This document shows positions 15,046 to 52,842 of a DNA stretch of 64,000 nucleotides, piece after piece (the stretch's first letter is position 1; each line of letters begins with the position of its first letter). The translations under genes were made by a program, and so were the position numbers. This DNA comes from Spiribacter sp. 2438. GTDB lineage: Bacteria; Pseudomonadota; Gammaproteobacteria; Nitrococcales; Nitrococcaceae. The DNA lies in assembly GCF_009676705.1 (NCBI RefSeq), contig NZ_CP046046.1:186001-250000 (forward strand), written 5' to 3'. The notes beneath the pieces were generated by a model that was not told where the DNA came from, did not search any database, and saw only the letters and a program-made list of their open reading frames with translations.

Positions 15046-15077
15046 CTTGATCCAACCCTGATTTCTGGGCAATATTT

Positions 15078-15244
15078 CTGGTGCTTCGGTTCTGGCGTCA
15101 CGACGCCGGATTAAAAGGGAACGCAGTGTAAAGCTGCGGCTGCCCCCGCAACTGTAAGCGGCGAGCGAAGCTCCTGAATGCCACTGTCGCCCCGGCGATG
15201 GGAAGGCGGAGCCCAGCAACGACCCGTGAGCCAGGAGACCTGCC
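15078..15244 (+). promoter_or_regulatory. cobalamin (AdoCbl) riboswitch
   Basis: The leader of btuB contains the class I cobalamin riboswitch hallmarks in order: the 5' P1/P2 region (GGTGCTTCGGTT), AAAAGGGAACGC-GTG, CTGCCCCCGCAACTGTAAGC, GCCACTG (15179-15185), GATGGGAAGGC, and the B12 box AGCCAGGAGACCTGCC at 15229-15244. Binding of adenosylcobalamin should repress btuB and probably the downstream uptake genes. Between it and the btuB start (15245-15406) are further hairpins, including a perfect 7-bp stem at 15366-15383 ending just before the ribosome site, a candidate expression platform acting on translation. Confidence 0.95.
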
Positions 15245-15365
15245 GATGTGTTCACCCATTTCCGGTGCGGGGCGCGCCAGGGAAGCGGCACTACCGCAGA
15301 GGTGACAGTCGCCGGTCTGCGGCGGGCTGTCTGATGAGGGCCTTCGCAGACCCCGTGTGTCTGTC

Positions 15366-40668: not shown

Positions 40669-41812
<1,144 letters not shown>

Positions 41813-41821
41813 GGGCGACCC

Positions 41822-42151
41822 TCAGTCGTTGTTGTCGGGGGTTGCTTCGGGCATTGCCTCGGGTGTCGCCTCCGGCACGGCTTCGGGGGTCGCTTCCGGT
41901 GTGGCCTCGGGCGCGGCCTCCGGAGTGGCCTCCGGTGTCGCCTCGGGCATGGCTTCCGGCGTTGCCTCCGGAGTCGCCTCGGGCGTGGCTTCCGGCGCGG
42001 TGTCCGGCGTGTCGCCGGGTTGCCGGATGTCCGAGACAATGGCGTGCAGCGACGCAGCACCGGTGACGGCAATCAGCAGCGGAGTGGTGTAGACCACGGT
42101 TCTGGACAGCCGGGCAATCAGTTGGCGGCGGGTCGGGTGATCGTCTTTCAT
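41822..42151 (-). CDS. small membrane protein with 13 PEA tetrapeptide repeats
   Basis: The 109-residue product has a basic N-terminus (TRRQLIARLSR, Tat-like), one hydrophobic segment at about residues 19-40, a short linker, then 13 consecutive four-residue units xPEA (residues 52-103, x = A, T, M or V) and the tail TPDNND. The repeat part is acidic and Pro-rich, expected to be extended and outside the inner membrane. I recognise no family. ATG 42151 shares one base with the stop of the DoxX gene, so the two are translationally coupled. Repeat proteins like this may act as spacers across the periplasm or cell wall; function unknown. Confidence 0.65.
   Translation of the reverse strand: MKDDHPTRRQLIARLSRTVVYTTPLLIAVTGAASLHAIVSDIRQPGDTPDTAPEATPEATPEATPEAMPEATPEATPEAAPEATPEATPEAVPEATPEAMPEATPDNND
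41843..41998 (-). repeat. 13 tandem 12-bp repeats inside coding sequence
   Basis: The minus-strand DNA is 13 tandem copies of a 12-bp unit encoding xPEA. Units differ mainly at the first codon and at third positions (GCC/GCG, CCG/CCC, GAG/GAA), so it is not a very fresh expansion, but copy number could vary by slippage in steps of four residues without shifting frame. Confidence 0.9.
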
Positions 42152-42570
42152 CAGGTCTGATTGCCGCGGATCAGCAGGTAAATGGACAGGCAGAGCAGGG
42201 TGACCTGGAACGCCATCCCTCCCATGGGATGGCTGGCTGAGGGCAAAAAGTGCCACTGGCCCCAGTGGACGAGAAAAATGGCGCCCAGCAGCACCGGGCA
42301 GGCCAGTGCGGCCCCCAGGCGGGTGATCCAGTCATTGGTGAGTGCTCCCGCCAGCAATAGCAGGCCGGCCATCAGCTCCAGGACCACCACCGCCACAACG
42401 AGGCCGAGGGGGAAGTTCATGGCCTCAGCAAAGGCGCCAACCCCCGTGCCAAGCCACTTTTCCAGGCCGTGGTACACCAGGACCGCCGCAAGCGGCGTGC
42501 GCAGCAGCCAGTGTGACTGAGCGGCCTGCCGGTCAAGAATGGCATCGCCACTGTCCAGAGGGGCTCCCAC
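42151..42570 (-). CDS. DoxX family membrane protein
   Basis: A GTG start at 42570 with AGGAG nine bases upstream gives 139 residues. The pattern of four membrane helices (LAAVLVYHGLEKWLG, LVVAVVVLELMAGLLLLAGA, LGAALACPVLLGAIFLVHWGQ, AFQVTLLCLSIYLLIRG) and the HGxEK segment fit DoxX/TQO small-subunit-like proteins. Roles in the family include thiosulfate or sulfide-linked quinone oxidoreduction and thiol stress, but most are uncharacterised. It precedes and overlaps the PEA-repeat protein by one base. Confidence 0.75.
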   Translation of the reverse strand: MGAPLDSGDAILDRQAAQSHWLLRTPLAAVLVYHGLEKWLGTGVGAFAEAMNFPLGLVVAVVVLELMAGLLLLAGALTNDWITRLGAALACPVLLGAIFLVHWGQWHFLPSASHPMGGMAFQVTLLCLSIYLLIRGNQT

Positions 42571-48304: not shown

Positions 48305-49198
48305 ATGTGGTTTCGCAATCTTTGCGTCTATCAGCTGGGTGACGCCTTTTCCATGGACGCCGAGCAGCTGGAGTCGCGGCTGCAGGGGGGCGGGTTTCAG
48401 CCCGTCGGGGCCCATGACCCGGAATCCCGTGGCTGGGTGCCTCCCATTGCCCCCGGGGGCGAGCAGCTGGTCCATGCCGCAGGCCAGCGCCTGATGATCT
48501 GCCTGCAGACCGAATCCCGGGTGCTGCCACCCGCGGTTATCCGGGAACAGGTGGAACAGCGCATCGCCGAGCGTGAGGAGGCCATGGGACGGCCAGTGGG
48601 TCGGCGCGAGAAAGTTCGGCTGAAGGAAGAGGTCACCATCGACCTTCTGCCCCGGGCCTTCACCAAAAGTCGCCGTCTCTATGCCTATCTGGATCTTGAA
48701 GACCGCTGGCTGGTGGTGGACGCCGCCACATGGCGTGAAGCCGAGCTGTTGACCGATGACCTCCGGGCCATGCTGGGCAGCTTTCCGGTCAGGCCGTTGC
48801 AGACAGACAGTTCGCCGGCGCAGGTGATGACCGACTGGCTGGCCCGGGATCGCTTCCCCAGTGATCTCGAGCCCGGCGAGGAGGCGGTTTTCGAGGATCC
48901 CCGGACTGAGGGCGCCGAGGTCCGCTGCAAGCGTCAGGACCTGCGCAGCGACGAGATGCGGACCCATGTTCGCGCCGGGAAGCGGGTGCGGCGGCTTGCC
49001 GTGGACTGGGACGGACGGGTGAACGCCGTACTGGATGCCGATCTGTCCATTAAACGGCTGAAATTCACCGATCTGGTGCAGTCAGACGCGGATGATCGGG
49101 AGGCGGAAAGCCCGGCTGAACGGTTCGACACGGATTTCGCGATCATGACCGGCGAGCTGAGCCGGTTCCTGCAGCGGGTCCCGGTTTGGTTTGGATAA
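48305..49198 (+). CDS. rdgC: recombination-associated protein RdgC
   Basis: The 297-residue RdgC starts MWFRNL, contains GGEQLVHAAGQRLMI, VREQVEQRI-type and DLLPRAFTKSRRLYAY segments and ends with the DFAIMTGELSRFL region. RdgC is a ring-forming DNA-binding protein of beta- and gammaproteobacteria that restrains RecA. It follows purK closely. Its stop codon sits in an A-run that is the T-tract of a minus-strand terminator. Confidence 0.97.
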   Translation: MWFRNLCVYQLGDAFSMDAEQLESRLQGGGFQPVGAHDPESRGWVPPIAPGGEQLVHAAGQRLMICLQTESRVLPPAVIREQVEQRIAEREEAMGRPVGRREKVRLKEEVTIDLLPRAFTKSRRLYAYLDLEDRWLVVDAATWREAELLTDDLRAMLGSFPVRPLQTDSSPAQVMTDWLARDRFPSDLEPGEEAVFEDPRTEGAEVRCKRQDLRSDEMRTHVRAGKRVRRLAVDWDGRVNAVLDADLSIKRLKFTDLVQSDADDREAESPAERFDTDFAIMTGELSRFLQRVPVWFG

Positions 49199-49371
49199 AA
49201 AAAAGCCGGCATTGATGCCGGCCAAGAGGAGGAGAGTCGATAACAGGAATTACCCTGTGATGGGTTGAATTGTAGGGACATGAATTAGCGTCAGGAATAG
49301 CCTGAATGGATGATGATATGTGCTGCAGCGGCACGAATCGGTTATAACCAGAAAGTATCTTCTTAGGTCAA
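49197..49371 (-). ncRNA. candidate small regulatory RNA with promoter and terminator
   Basis: In the gap between rdgC and the rhodanese gene the minus strand has a promoter-like TTGACC (49366-49371), 18-base spacer, TTATAA (49342-49347), and, about 135 bases on, an intrinsic terminator: GCCGGCA-TTGA-TGCCGGC (49205-49222) followed by eight T residues (49197-49204). Just before the terminator the RNA would carry the single-stranded CU-rich stretch CTCTCCTCCTCTT, complementary to Shine-Dalgarno sequences, a hallmark of many small RNAs. No minus-strand gene lies here to explain the terminator. The predicted transcript is about 49335 to 49197. Evidence is sequence pattern only. Confidence 0.55.
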
Positions 49372-49440: not shown

Positions 49441-50391
49441 ATGAAAATTCTCAAACAGCTGGTCCCGGCCGCCCTCCTCGGATTGGCCTATGTCGCGTCG
49501 GCGGCTGCCGGTCCCCAGCACTCCCCGCTGGTCAGCAGCGAATGGCTGAACAGCCATCTCGGCAGCGATGACCTGGTGGTGGTTGACGTGCGCTCCGGCA
49601 TTGATGGAACCGACGCCGAAGGTTTTGCCAACGGTCATATTCCCGGTGCGGTCTATGCAAGCTACACCGCAGCCGGGTGGCGGGTCGCCGATGGATCCGT
49701 GCCGGGCGTGCTGCCTCCGGTGGGTGACCTGGAAAATCTGATCGGCAACCTGGGGATCAGCAACAATGATCGAGTGGTCGTCGTACCCGCGGGGGTTGGC
49801 TCCACGGATTTCGGTAGCGCCGCTCGGGTGTACTGGACGTTCAAGTATCTGGGTCATGACGATGTCGCCATCCTCGACGGCGGCTTCCGAGCGTGGGTCG
49901 AGACTGGCGGCGAAGTGGCCACCGGCACGCCAGCCATAGAGCCGGCCCGGTTCGAGGCCAACGTCCGGCCGGAGCTTCTTGCTGACACCGACGCCGTGGA
50001 GGAAATCCAGGCAGCCGGCGGACAGCTGGTGGATGCCCGGCCCGCTGACCAGTTTGCCGGCGATGCCAAGCATCCGGCCTCCACCCGGGCCGGCACCATC
50101 CCCGGTGCGCTCAGCCTTGAAGAGGGGCTCCTAGTTCGGGAAGGCTCGGCCTTCTTCCTGGATGCAGACGATGTCAACGAGCTGATCCAGACCGCGGGTA
50201 TCCGCAGCGATGAGCCGGCGGTGTCCTTCTGCAACACCGGTCACTGGGCGGCAACGGCCTGGTTCGCACTCTCTGAGATCGCCGGTTTCGACAACGTGGC
50301 CATGTATGACGGTTCCATGACCGAATGGTCCCAGGACGACGCTCGCGAGATCGTGCGGGGCCAGCAGGCGTTGAGCGAACTGCTTAACTGA
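49441..50391 (+). CDS. periplasmic rhodanese-type sulfurtransferase
   Basis: The 316-residue protein has a signal peptide (cleavage near AAA-G, residue 24) and two rhodanese domains. The C-terminal domain has the active loop CNTGHWA (Cys at about residue 264); the N-terminal domain lacks the Cys (PAGVGSTD) and is structural. Related to SseA-like thiosulfate or mercaptopyruvate sulfurtransferases but secreted. It is followed by a TsuA-like transporter and a microprotein, suggesting periplasmic thiosulfate handling ahead of uptake. Confidence 0.9.
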   Translation: MKILKQLVPAALLGLAYVASAAAGPQHSPLVSSEWLNSHLGSDDLVVVDVRSGIDGTDAEGFANGHIPGAVYASYTAAGWRVADGSVPGVLPPVGDLENLIGNLGISNNDRVVVVPAGVGSTDFGSAARVYWTFKYLGHDDVAILDGGFRAWVETGGEVATGTPAIEPARFEANVRPELLADTDAVEEIQAAGGQLVDARPADQFAGDAKHPASTRAGTIPGALSLEEGLLVREGSAFFLDADDVNELIQTAGIRSDEPAVSFCNTGHWAATAWFALSEIAGFDNVAMYDGSMTEWSQDDAREIVRGQQALSELLN

Positions 50392-50407: not shown

Positions 50408-51619
50408 ATGAGCACGCTGGCTGAGGCCATTAATGGCGAATCCCCCCGCCGCGCCGCTGGCGCGCTGGGGGGAGATCGTTTTGTGATCACCAGTGTCCTG
50501 CTGGCCGGCGCGATTCTGGGCGCCATGGTCTGGTCCCTGGGATCCCCGCGGCTTTTTTGGCTTTATCTGATCGGCGGCGGGCTGGGGGTTGCCCTGTACC
50601 ATGCCGCTTTCGGGTTTACGGCGGGGTGGCGCAACTTCATCGTTCGGCGCCGCAGCCGGGGGTTGCGCGCTCAGCTGTTGCTGATTGGGATCGCTTCGGT
50701 GCTGTTCATTCCGGTGATTGCCGCCGGGCAGGCCAACGGCAACATCGCCCCCGTGGGTGGCTTCGTGGTGCTGGGCAGTTTCCTGTTCGGCCTGGGGATG
50801 CAGCTTGGCGGGGGGTGCGGCTCGGGCACGTTGTTCACCGTGGCTGCCGGCAACCGGCGCATGCTGATCACCCTGCTGGCATTCATCGCCGGGTCCGTGA
50901 TTGGCACCCTGCACCTGCCCTGGTGGTTGTCCGGTCCGAACATGGGCCCGGTCAATCTCGCCCTGACTTTTGACCCCCTCGGCGGCATCCTCCTGCAGGT
51001 GGCCCTGCTGGCTGCACTGGGCTGGGTCATCATGGCAGTGGAGCGGGAGCGTCATGGAGACGTGGAGCGGCTTCTGATGGCGCCGGGGCAGTCCTGGTGG
51101 CGGACACTGATTACCGGCAACTGGCCCCTGCTGTGGGGGGTTGTGGCCCTGGCCGGCCTGGGGCTGCTCACGTTGCTGGTCGCCGGCCAACCCTGGGGCA
51201 TCACCTTTGCCTTCACCCTCTGGGGCGCCAAGGCTCTGGCCGCGGTGGGGGTGGACATGAGCCAGTTTGAATACTGGACCTGGAGTTACCCCGCCCAGGT
51301 GCTGGAGCAGAGTGTGCTGCTTGAGGTCACGTCGGTCATGGCCTTCGGCCTGATCCTGGGTGCCATGCTGGCGGCTGGCCTGGCGGGTCGTTATAACGCC
51401 GGCAGCCTGAACCGCCTTGGACTCGGTAACGTCAGTGCGGCGGTGATCGGCGGGCTGCTGATGGGGTACGGCGCCCGGCTGGCATTCGGCTGCAACATCG
51501 GCGCCTTTTTCAGTGGCATTGCCACCGGCAGCCTGCATGGCTGGGTGTGGTTTGTTTTCGGTTTTCTCGGGTCCATCGTCGGCGTCGCCCTGCGTCCTCG
51601 CTTTGGCATGGAGAACTAG
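50408..51619 (+). CDS. YeeE/YedE family thiosulfate-transporter-like protein
   Basis: The 403-residue membrane protein has about nine or more hydrophobic segments in two halves and the conserved cysteine motifs GGGCGSGTLF (about residues 137-146) and FGCNIGAFFSGIATGSLHG (about residues 360-378), as in TsuA, the thiosulfate importer. It lies 16 bases after the rhodanese gene and is followed by a 33-residue membrane protein. A second family member begins at the left window edge (1-184). Confidence 0.9.
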   Translation: MSTLAEAINGESPRRAAGALGGDRFVITSVLLAGAILGAMVWSLGSPRLFWLYLIGGGLGVALYHAAFGFTAGWRNFIVRRRSRGLRAQLLLIGIASVLFIPVIAAGQANGNIAPVGGFVVLGSFLFGLGMQLGGGCGSGTLFTVAAGNRRMLITLLAFIAGSVIGTLHLPWWLSGPNMGPVNLALTFDPLGGILLQVALLAALGWVIMAVERERHGDVERLLMAPGQSWWRTLITGNWPLLWGVVALAGLGLLTLLVAGQPWGITFAFTLWGAKALAAVGVDMSQFEYWTWSYPAQVLEQSVLLEVTSVMAFGLILGAMLAAGLAGRYNAGSLNRLGLGNVSAAVIGGLLMGYGARLAFGCNIGAFFSGIATGSLHGWVWFVFGFLGSIVGVALRPRFGMEN

Positions 51620-51755: not shown

Positions 51756-52775
51756 TCAACCGGCTGACAATCCGCGGATCAGGTGCTCGGTGTTCAGGGT
51801 CAGGCTGTCGTAGTGATAGCCGCCCTCCTGAATCACCAGAGTTGGCAGGTCCATGGAGGCAATCCGGCGCCCCAGCGTCTCAATGTCTTCCGACTCCACG
51901 GCGATTTTGGCCTGGGGGTCTTCCCGATAAATATCAAATCCGCTGGATAACACCAGGGCATCCGGCGCGAATAGTCGGACCGCGGTCAGGGCCTCGTCGA
52001 GGCGCTGGAAAAAGGCATCGCTGCCGGAGCCATGGGGCAGCGGCAGATTGATGTTGTATCCGAGGCCCGGCCCTTCGCCGCGCTCGTCCTCAAAACCCGT
52101 GACCACCGGGTAGAAGTTGGTGGGATCGCCGTGAATGGACACGTAGAGCACGTCGCTGCGCGGGTAAAAGATCTCCTGAATGCCCTGTCCATGATGGACG
52201 TCAGTATCCAGAATGGCGACGCGGCTGTAGCGCTGGCGCAGATGCTCCGCGGCAATCGCGGCGTTGTTGAGGTAGCAGAAGCCACCCGCCGCATCCACCC
52301 GGGCGTGGTGCCCCGGCGGCCGGCAGAGCGCAAAGCTCATGGGCTCACCGGCCAGGATGTCGTCCGCCGCCGTCAGGGCCCCCTGTGCGGACCAGTAGGC
52401 CGCCTCCCAGGTGTGTTCGCCTACCGGGCAGCTGCCGTCCGCCAGATAGCAGGCGGCTTCGGCCAGAATGCCGCGCAGCGGGTTGGGTGAGCGGACGTAG
52501 ATGTTCGACAGCACTTCCGGGCCCCAATCCTCCGGCATGGCCTCCCAGCGGCGGTGACAGGATTCGAGGAACCGCAGATAGCCCAGATCATGAACCCGGC
52601 TGATGGGCCGGATGCCGTGATCCACCACGGGGCATTCGGTCACCCCGGCGTTGCCGAGACCGCCGCGAATATGCCCGGTGCGCTCGGGGATTTCCTGGGG
52701 GGCTCGCATTTGTCCGCGGGTGAGGTAGGTGCGCGGATGGTGCAGATCCTGGCGGCTGTCGAAATAGGCTTTCAC
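51756..52775 (-). CDS. acetylpolyamine amidohydrolase (histone-deacetylase family)
   Basis: A GTG start at 52775 with GAGG upstream gives 339 residues beginning VKAYFD, the typical start of the family. Catalytic and zinc residues are visible: PPGHHARVD (His pair), DTDVHHGQG (zinc Asp and His) and SGFDIYREDP (zinc Asp). The family removes acetyl groups from polyamines such as acetylspermidine and acetylputrescine. Length and start fit the bacterial APAH clade better than acetoin-utilisation AcuC. Upstream lies the tRNA-Arg duplication region. The gene has no partner in the same direction. Confidence 0.88.
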   Translation of the reverse strand: MKAYFDSRQDLHHPRTYLTRGQMRAPQEIPERTGHIRGGLGNAGVTECPVVDHGIRPISRVHDLGYLRFLESCHRRWEAMPEDWGPEVLSNIYVRSPNPLRGILAEAACYLADGSCPVGEHTWEAAYWSAQGALTAADDILAGEPMSFALCRPPGHHARVDAAGGFCYLNNAAIAAEHLRQRYSRVAILDTDVHHGQGIQEIFYPRSDVLYVSIHGDPTNFYPVVTGFEDERGEGPGLGYNINLPLPHGSGSDAFFQRLDEALTAVRLFAPDALVLSSGFDIYREDPQAKIAVESEDIETLGRRIASMDLPTLVIQEGGYHYDSLTLNTEHLIRGLSAG

Positions 52776-52842
52776 GGTGTCGATATCCTCGGGCTTGGCA
52801 GATGCCGGAATAATGCCGACGAAAGCGACCCATGCCAACGGG

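Follow-up and report, generated by a model that had tools for sequence, protein, structure and literature searches.

Within a stretch of 64,000 nucleotides of the Spiribacter sp. 2438 genome (positions 186001-250000 of its single 1.90-Mb contig; hereafter the window), a gap of 242 bases separates the reading frames of rdgC and a rhodanese gene. The minus strand of this gap holds a candidate small RNA (sRNA) gene, which we call copy A (Table 1). Direct reading bears out each element that the original prediction described here: TTGACC and TTATAA boxes with an 18-nt spacer, a CU-rich stretch, a GC stem of 7 bp, and eight T residues at the rdgC stop, in a gap of the claimed length. By themselves, these boxes and the terminator are weak evidence. 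A terminator scan of 2.5 kb returned two sites where 1.2 were expected, and a sigma-70 promoter scan called no site, because TTATAA fails the scan's rule for the last T. Copy A stands above chance because it is conserved, with a paralog in its own genome and matches in 17/23 genomes of the family.

Table 1. Features of copy A and its surroundings, in window coordinates.
Feature	Position	Strand	Basis or remark
TTGACC, -35-like box of copy A	49366..49371	-	read directly
TTATAA, -10-like box of copy A	49342..49347	-	read directly
Copy A sRNA, predicted transcript of ~139 nt	49197..49335	-	5' end inferred from the -10 box
5' hairpin GTGC..GCAC	49320..49334	-	predicted fold; TGTGnC..GnCACA recurs in several species (by sequence)
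Small hairpin TCAGG-CTATT-CCTGA, includes conserved GGCTNTTCC	49291..49305	-	predicted fold and sequence conservation
Hairpin ACAGG..CCTGT, abuts the CU stretch on its upstream side	49243..49258	-	covariation
CU-rich seed CTCTCCTCCTCTT	49224..49236	-	read directly
Terminator stem-loop, 7-bp GC stem, loop TCAA	49205..49222	-	read directly, predicted fold
U tract, 8 T, overlaps the rdgC stop	49197..49204	-	read directly
rdgC, convergent neighbour	48305..49198	+	PF04381, 356 bits
Rhodanese gene, divergent neighbour	49441..50391	+	PF00581; missing from this place in 5/12 species (synteny)
YeeE-type sulphur transport gene, sits with the rhodanese gene	50408..51619	+	PF04143
Histone-deacetylase-like gene, on copy A's strand	51756..52838	-	PF00850; directly upstream of copy A in 5 species

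A search with the 251-nt region found a second locus in the same genome at 1413259-1413300 on the minus strand (E 6.5e-8). This locus, copy B, resembles copy A in the CU stretch and terminator only. Eighteen of fifty-nine genomes matched, the Spiribacter sp. 2438 genome included; seventeen belong to the family (17/23), where relatives occur in three further genera. The eighteenth match, in G035 of another family (L020), covers only 24 nt of stem within other sequence and was set aside. Sorting the loci by neighbours and upstream sequence places copy A in 12/14 Spiribacter genomes and copy B in all fourteen, and 12/14 carry at least two copies with the same CU-rich stretch. Copy A was not found in G007 (74% complete) or G011 (99% complete). 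It was seen beside rdgC in ten of its twelve genomes; in G001 and G005 the flank examined covers only the deacetylase gene. Copy B has different neighbours: a pair of genes taken for pdeM and a partner of the ligase-associated helicase, and an ion-channel or phrB-like gene (names from reading rather than family searches).

A 46-nt covariance model of the CU stretch and terminator, built from twenty-nine sequences of seventeen genomes, again matched 17/23 family genomes. What it clearly added was three copies in Arhodomonas (G015), bringing that genome to four, two of them in tandem. The tandem copies lie ~170 nt apart (L069, 650-864), with a degenerate third CU-terminator further upstream. Six genomes of two sister genera (five of one, one of the other) gave no match to the model, and elsewhere in the order G024 alone was a clear find (E 6.6e-8). 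Across the class, 11/369 genomes matched at E up to 1e-4. Eight of these lie beyond Spiribacter sp. 2438, Arhodomonas and G024; their nine matches (7e-6 to 9.7e-5) are by eye mostly terminators near coding genes, and we do not count them as members. A pattern scan of named genomes returned twenty-two stretches. Eighteen came from Spiribacter, uncultured Ectothiorhodospiraceae, MAG GSL_CB2_6 and Arhodomonas, and the named matches include Spiribacter salilacus C176, uncultured Spiribacter and Ectothiorhodospiraceae MAGs, and Arhodomonas aquaeolei DSM 8974. The other four (L098, L104, L108, L109) are from elsewhere, probably reflect convergence, and were set aside.

The twenty-nine aligned copies are invariant in CTCTCCTCCT, in the stem-opening TGGCCG and in the U8 tract. 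The first ten nucleotides of the CU seed are identical in every copy, and a single copy departs from the others at the next two. Copies A and B conserve the CU stretch and terminator equally well; all copies were found by similarity to these parts, so diverged copies would be missed.

The original prediction had described the ~115 bases upstream of the CU stretch as unstructured. This is wrong: with -31.2 kcal/mol (z -2.46) the predicted RNA (49335-49197) has a better fold than 198/200 shuffles, and the hairpin at 49258-49243 covaries. All 13/13 type-A sequences fold a hairpin at this place, and four of its seven pairs show compensatory changes among eight species sharing a register (8/12 Spiribacter type-A sequences, without G006, G003, G008 and G004, whose hairpin is shifted, and without the G017 sequence). 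Hairpin and terminator together give a covariation score of 0.388, compared with 0.163 in shuffles (0/500 attained 0.388) and no more than 0.112 when the structure is slid. A weaker measure, pairs with double changes, gave six against 3.9 in shuffles, a value that 43/500 shuffles reach. RNAalifold on a plain MAFFT alignment did not recover the hairpin, and, depending on the sequence, between 2 and 45 simple shuffles out of 300 match its energy, so no single sequence is strong proof. One terminator stem pair varies between A-U, G-U and G-C among species. The 5' part of copy A is highly variable, and the TGTGnC..GnCACA motif, GGTCATCC and GGCTNTTCC recur within type-A sequences. In predicted folds the CU stretch is single-stranded before a Rho-independent terminator; in copy B of Spiribacter sp. 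2438 its first CUCU can pair with AGAG.

Copy A occurs in two arrangements. The rhodanese and yeeE-type genes adjoin its upstream side in seven Spiribacter species, the window included. Past these two genes the window has the deacetylase gene, a point that the flanks examined in the other six do not reach. GTTATA lies 112-116 nt before the CU stretch in 6/7 of these species, and by eye the six species other than Spiribacter sp. 2438 read TTGTCT, TTGCTC, TTACTC, TGGATT (in two) and TTGCTT at a distance similar to that of TTGACC. In five further species (L009, L011, L012, L013, L025) the deacetylase stop is 118-135 nt before the CU stretch by synteny, so copy A begins almost at once after that gene, and GTTATA is missing from all five loci. 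The promoter-like sequence of copy A is thus not universal in Spiribacter. Where the original prediction looked to relatives for conservation of promoter and hairpin, the terminator hairpin is kept, the promoter in only part of the genus. In the five deacetylase-type species copy A would be a 3' UTR, from which the sRNA could be cut.

A rival account is that copy A is not an independent sRNA. It might instead be a conserved terminator or mRNA 3' end, one that closes the deacetylase mRNA elsewhere and is a leftover in the window. The five loci with a nearby deacetylase stop and no GTTATA fit this account, as do G024, G033 and Arhodomonas (L087), where the CU-terminator stands at the end of a small protein gene; several weak class-level matches also resemble gene 3' ends by eye. 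However, a plain terminator needs neither an invariant CU stretch nor a covarying hairpin upstream of it. In the window, two opposite-strand genes stand between copy A and the deacetylase gene, and copy B has promoter-like sequence of its own and no ORF. Moreover, sRNAs can arise from 3' ends too, as described for UdsC in the available text of PMC9779115. We think it unlikely that copy A is only a 3' end.

The CU stretch is complementary to a common type of Shine-Dalgarno (SD) sequence. Its exact 13-nt complement occurs at three sites in the Spiribacter sp. 2438 genome: the two sRNA genes and the SD of an ABC-permease-like gene (Pfam BPD_transp_1, 24.9 bits, just below the cut-off). The shorter pattern GAGGAGAG-N0-10-ATG has twenty-eight sites there and none when reversed. 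Over the fourteen genomes it has 245 against 16 reversed, a few of the 245 being opposite-strand readings of the sRNA genes or repeat counts of one SD with two ATGs. With the A changed to C, G or T (GAGGAGBG-N0-10-ATG, three letters pooled) the counts were 497 and 154 in the control; once the controls are subtracted, the A form exceeds the others per letter by a factor of about two across the genus and of about five in Spiribacter sp. 2438. Some of this excess could stem from ordinary SD preference, and since GAGGAG is an ordinary strong SD, complementarity to it is partly automatic.

We fetched the GAGGAGAG sites of three genomes (28, 16 and 15), which are predicted to pair with the CU stretch at -15 to -29 kcal/mol. 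Genes for adk and an exaC-type aldehyde dehydrogenase have a site in all three genomes. Found in two of three are DUF779, ribbon-helix-helix, bktB-type thiolase and TRAP binding protein genes, a 64-aa membrane-like ORF, a gene like those of GAF-domain regulators, and one that we read as acyl-CoA-synthetase-like. Of the GAGGAGAG genes of Spiribacter sp. 2438, 9/27 act in taking up or degrading organic acids, aldehydes, amides or fatty acids, compared with 2/33 control genes (Fisher p 0.008). A 2-methylcitrate synthase gene (above the cut-off of NF009006) and one like prpB (below cut-off) are among the nine. The enrichment is only suggestive, as the category was chosen after the names had been seen. 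The scan took in twenty-seven of the twenty-eight genes, leaving out one 46-aa ORF. Control genes were those with an AAGGAG SD (40/80 sites fetched, seven dropped as ORFs under 60 aa); one of them, an acetyl-CoA synthetase gene (L214), has an SD that could also pair with the CU stretch.

That the CU stretch is almost fully identical between genera would also suit a protein-binding site, and the module could act as a decoy or sponge without pairing to mRNA. In favour of this, too, no target with long complementarity outside the SD was found. Against this, the stretch is complementary to the SD type that precedes many genes, and similar stretches in the NmsR sRNAs of Neisseria meningitidis act by SD pairing in the reporter tests described in the accessible part of PMC5362039. 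We regard a protein-binding or decoy role as rather improbable, and SD pairing as the likely mechanism. That copy A is a decaying duplicate with no present function would fit its apparent lack in G007 and G011 and its variable 5' part but is highly improbable, given a CU stretch and terminator as conserved as those of copy B and an upstream hairpin kept by compensatory changes. The idea of a minus-strand sRNA with a ribosome-site-blocking CU stretch, as first proposed for this gap, is thus supported at the level of sequence by conservation at two loci, covariation, an hfq gene and SD complementarity.

Copy B is predicted to be an RNA of ~60 nt, with promoter-like sequence and no ORF. Its extended -10 is followed by TGC-N3-GCAAC. 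PhaR is a regulator of PHB granules, and the core of its motif in Sinorhizobium meliloti is given as YGCRNYGCR in the available sections of PMC12542648. This core lies at -10/+1 of copy B, 23-26 nt before the CU stretch, in 15/15 loci (fourteen Spiribacter, one Arhodomonas) and within 230 nt in 0/13 type-A loci; its background in the window is 0.30 per kb and strand. The Spiribacter sp. 2438 genome carries a PhaR gene, two phasin genes and an hfq gene, with phaC in the window. Both phasin promoters read TATATTGC-N3-GCAACAAGG, arranged like copy B, and copy B of G002 reads TATATTGCATTGCAACACGG. A wider pattern of dyad plus -10 box, written after the copy-B and phasin promoters had been seen, matched twenty-three distinct places in 701 kb of DNA that was partly redundant and much of it chosen because of the sRNA. 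These were sixteen copy-B promoters (fourteen Spiribacter, Arhodomonas and G017), one more family sRNA (G018), a two-hairpin CU-rich RNA of G027, two RSP_7527-like genes, two phasins and the leader of a coaD-like gene in the window. In S. meliloti, PhaR (AniA) is reported to repress mmgR through a YGCRNYGCR dyad (parts of PMC12542648 and PMC8401924). Copy B appears to carry a PhaR-type operator, to which PhaR would bind.

The coaD-like leader lies at 41272-41302 on the plus strand of the window, where TATGC is followed by a PhaR-core-like TGCACCGCA and, shortly after it, by a GGAGGAGA SD and the start codon ATG of an ORF read as coaD, which may share the PhaR regulon. Elsewhere in the window we noted an ORF at 41822-42256 (minus strand) that encodes a low-complexity protein with a long run of ATPEATPEA-type repeats, and a Cobalamin riboswitch at 15070-15261 (plus strand; 139 bits).

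In G024 and G033 the small gene closed by the CU-terminator stands behind a PhaR-type promoter, and in Arhodomonas another copy closes a similar gene lacking that promoter pattern. These genes (L061, L063, L087) are RSP_7527-like, with 3' UTRs that end in the CU stretch and terminator of the sRNA family. Their proteins have no Pfam match; against the NCBIfam RSP_7527 family one scores above the cut-off (30.6, cut-off 26) and two below (19.6 and 18.9). In Rhodobacter sphaeroides, UdsC is described as cut from the RSP_7527 3' UTR (PMC9779115, in the part available). The likeness suggests that the free sRNA may have come from the 3' UTR of an RSP_7527-like gene.

At gathering score, Rfam has no family at the copy A site. 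The best match at E up to 10, rseX (36.7 bits, threshold 50), was rejected because its alignment is good mainly over the similar terminator. For a copy-B RNA the best Rfam match is RF00519 (suhB), the alpha-r8 family of MmgR from Sinorhizobium meliloti, with scores of 28.2 bits for copy B of G017 (full length), 23.3 for an Arhodomonas copy and 16.6 for the window copy, all under the gathering score of 41. Going by the Rfam consensus, MmgR is likewise a short RNA with a 5' hairpin, a CU-containing single strand and a GC terminator with a long U tract. Its gene, like copy B but unlike copy A, has a PhaR-type dyad in the promoter. However, MmgR is alphaproteobacterial, and its consensus lacks the CUCUCCUCCUCUUGG block. 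The suspected targets of MmgR are phasin mRNAs; the phasin leaders of Spiribacter sp. 2438 are predicted to pair weakly with the CU stretch (about -11 kcal/mol), and we do not favour phasin mRNAs as main targets.

Another similar system is NmsRA and NmsRB of Neisseria meningitidis, sibling sRNAs with anti-SD stretches that lower prpB, prpC, gltA, sdhC, sucC and fumC, according to the portions of PMC5362039 at hand; the predicted Spiribacter targets similarly include prpC-type and prpB-like genes. Unlike the NmsR pair, the Spiribacter copies are far apart and not in tandem, although Arhodomonas has a tandem pair. The NmsR sRNAs are also linked to relA, and those portions mention no PhaR control for them.

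The double-hairpin RNAs of Burkholderia (RF02278) are multi-copy, with two hairpins, CU-rich unpaired stretches and predicted ribosome-binding-site targets (available text of PMC5688073). The window copy scores 19.1 bits and the G027 RNA 24.6 against this family, under its gathering score of 50. That G027 RNA (L064, contig 25, 407-475, minus strand), from another family of the order, is ~69 nt long with two hairpins and two CU-rich stretches (z -5.2), stands behind two PhaR-type dyads and is weakly like RF02278. PhaR control was rejected for the Burkholderiaceae plasmid matches that were read (eight of the twelve to the RF02278 consensus): YGCRNYGCR occurs within 100 nt upstream in 0/8 and further upstream in two (L249 at -116 and -146, L251 at -101). 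In all eight (L244-L251), a -10-like region with GGTTTATACT is conserved ~100 nt before the match at 601.

Rhodobacter sphaeroides has further sibling sRNAs, CcsR1-4. Both these and UdsC differ from the Spiribacter copies in their RpoH-type promoters (parts of PMC9779115 and PMC10253847). The likeness to UdsC is that the CU module of G033, G024 and Arhodomonas also follows RSP_7527-like small genes. As far as Rfam can tell, copies A and B are of a known kind, CU-rich sibling sRNAs, and belong to no known family. Among the matches listed from open-licence PMC papers we found no described sRNA of Spiribacter or Ectothiorhodospiraceae; a structured-RNA survey naming Spiribacter places the proX motif there (PMC8632094, in the part available).

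Judged by sequence, copy A is a real, conserved, sRNA-like gene and one of a sibling pair. The explanation that we consider probable is that A and B are trans-acting sRNAs of the Hfq type that block purine-rich SD sites, copy B being under a PhaR-type operator. They would form a two-member family in Spiribacter and related Ectothiorhodospiraceae, both ending in CUCUCCUCCUCUUGG, a GC stem and U8. Hfq would hold the U tail, and the exposed CU stretch would pair with GAGGAG-type SD sequences of its putative targets and block initiation. Sequestration of PhaR by PHB granules would switch copy B on, as it does PhaR targets in Sinorhizobium. Copy A, with extra hairpins, would use its own promoter here, ride on the deacetylase mRNA in other species, and answer another signal.

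A more tentative extension, which we hold to be possible but doubtful, is that the pair acts as a carbon-storage riboregulator. When PHB stores are full and PhaR is off the DNA, copy B and the phasins would be made, and copy B would shut translation of genes for the uptake and oxidation of short organic acids; copy A would have the identical effect in response to another signal. The module would also have moved between hosts, from the 3' UTR of a PhaR-controlled RSP_7527-like gene (as in G024 and G033) to a free sRNA gene (B), then to the deacetylase 3' UTR and again to a free gene (copy A).

The putative PhaR link of copy B is the most interesting part of these results. If the sibling-sRNA explanation is right, copy A would allow one sRNA to be compared in nature in two forms, as the product of its own promoter and as a 3' UTR. 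A streamlined halophile of 1.9 Mb would have a conserved sibling-sRNA system, and the link from PhaR to an sRNA, known for MmgR, would be carried into the Gammaproteobacteria.
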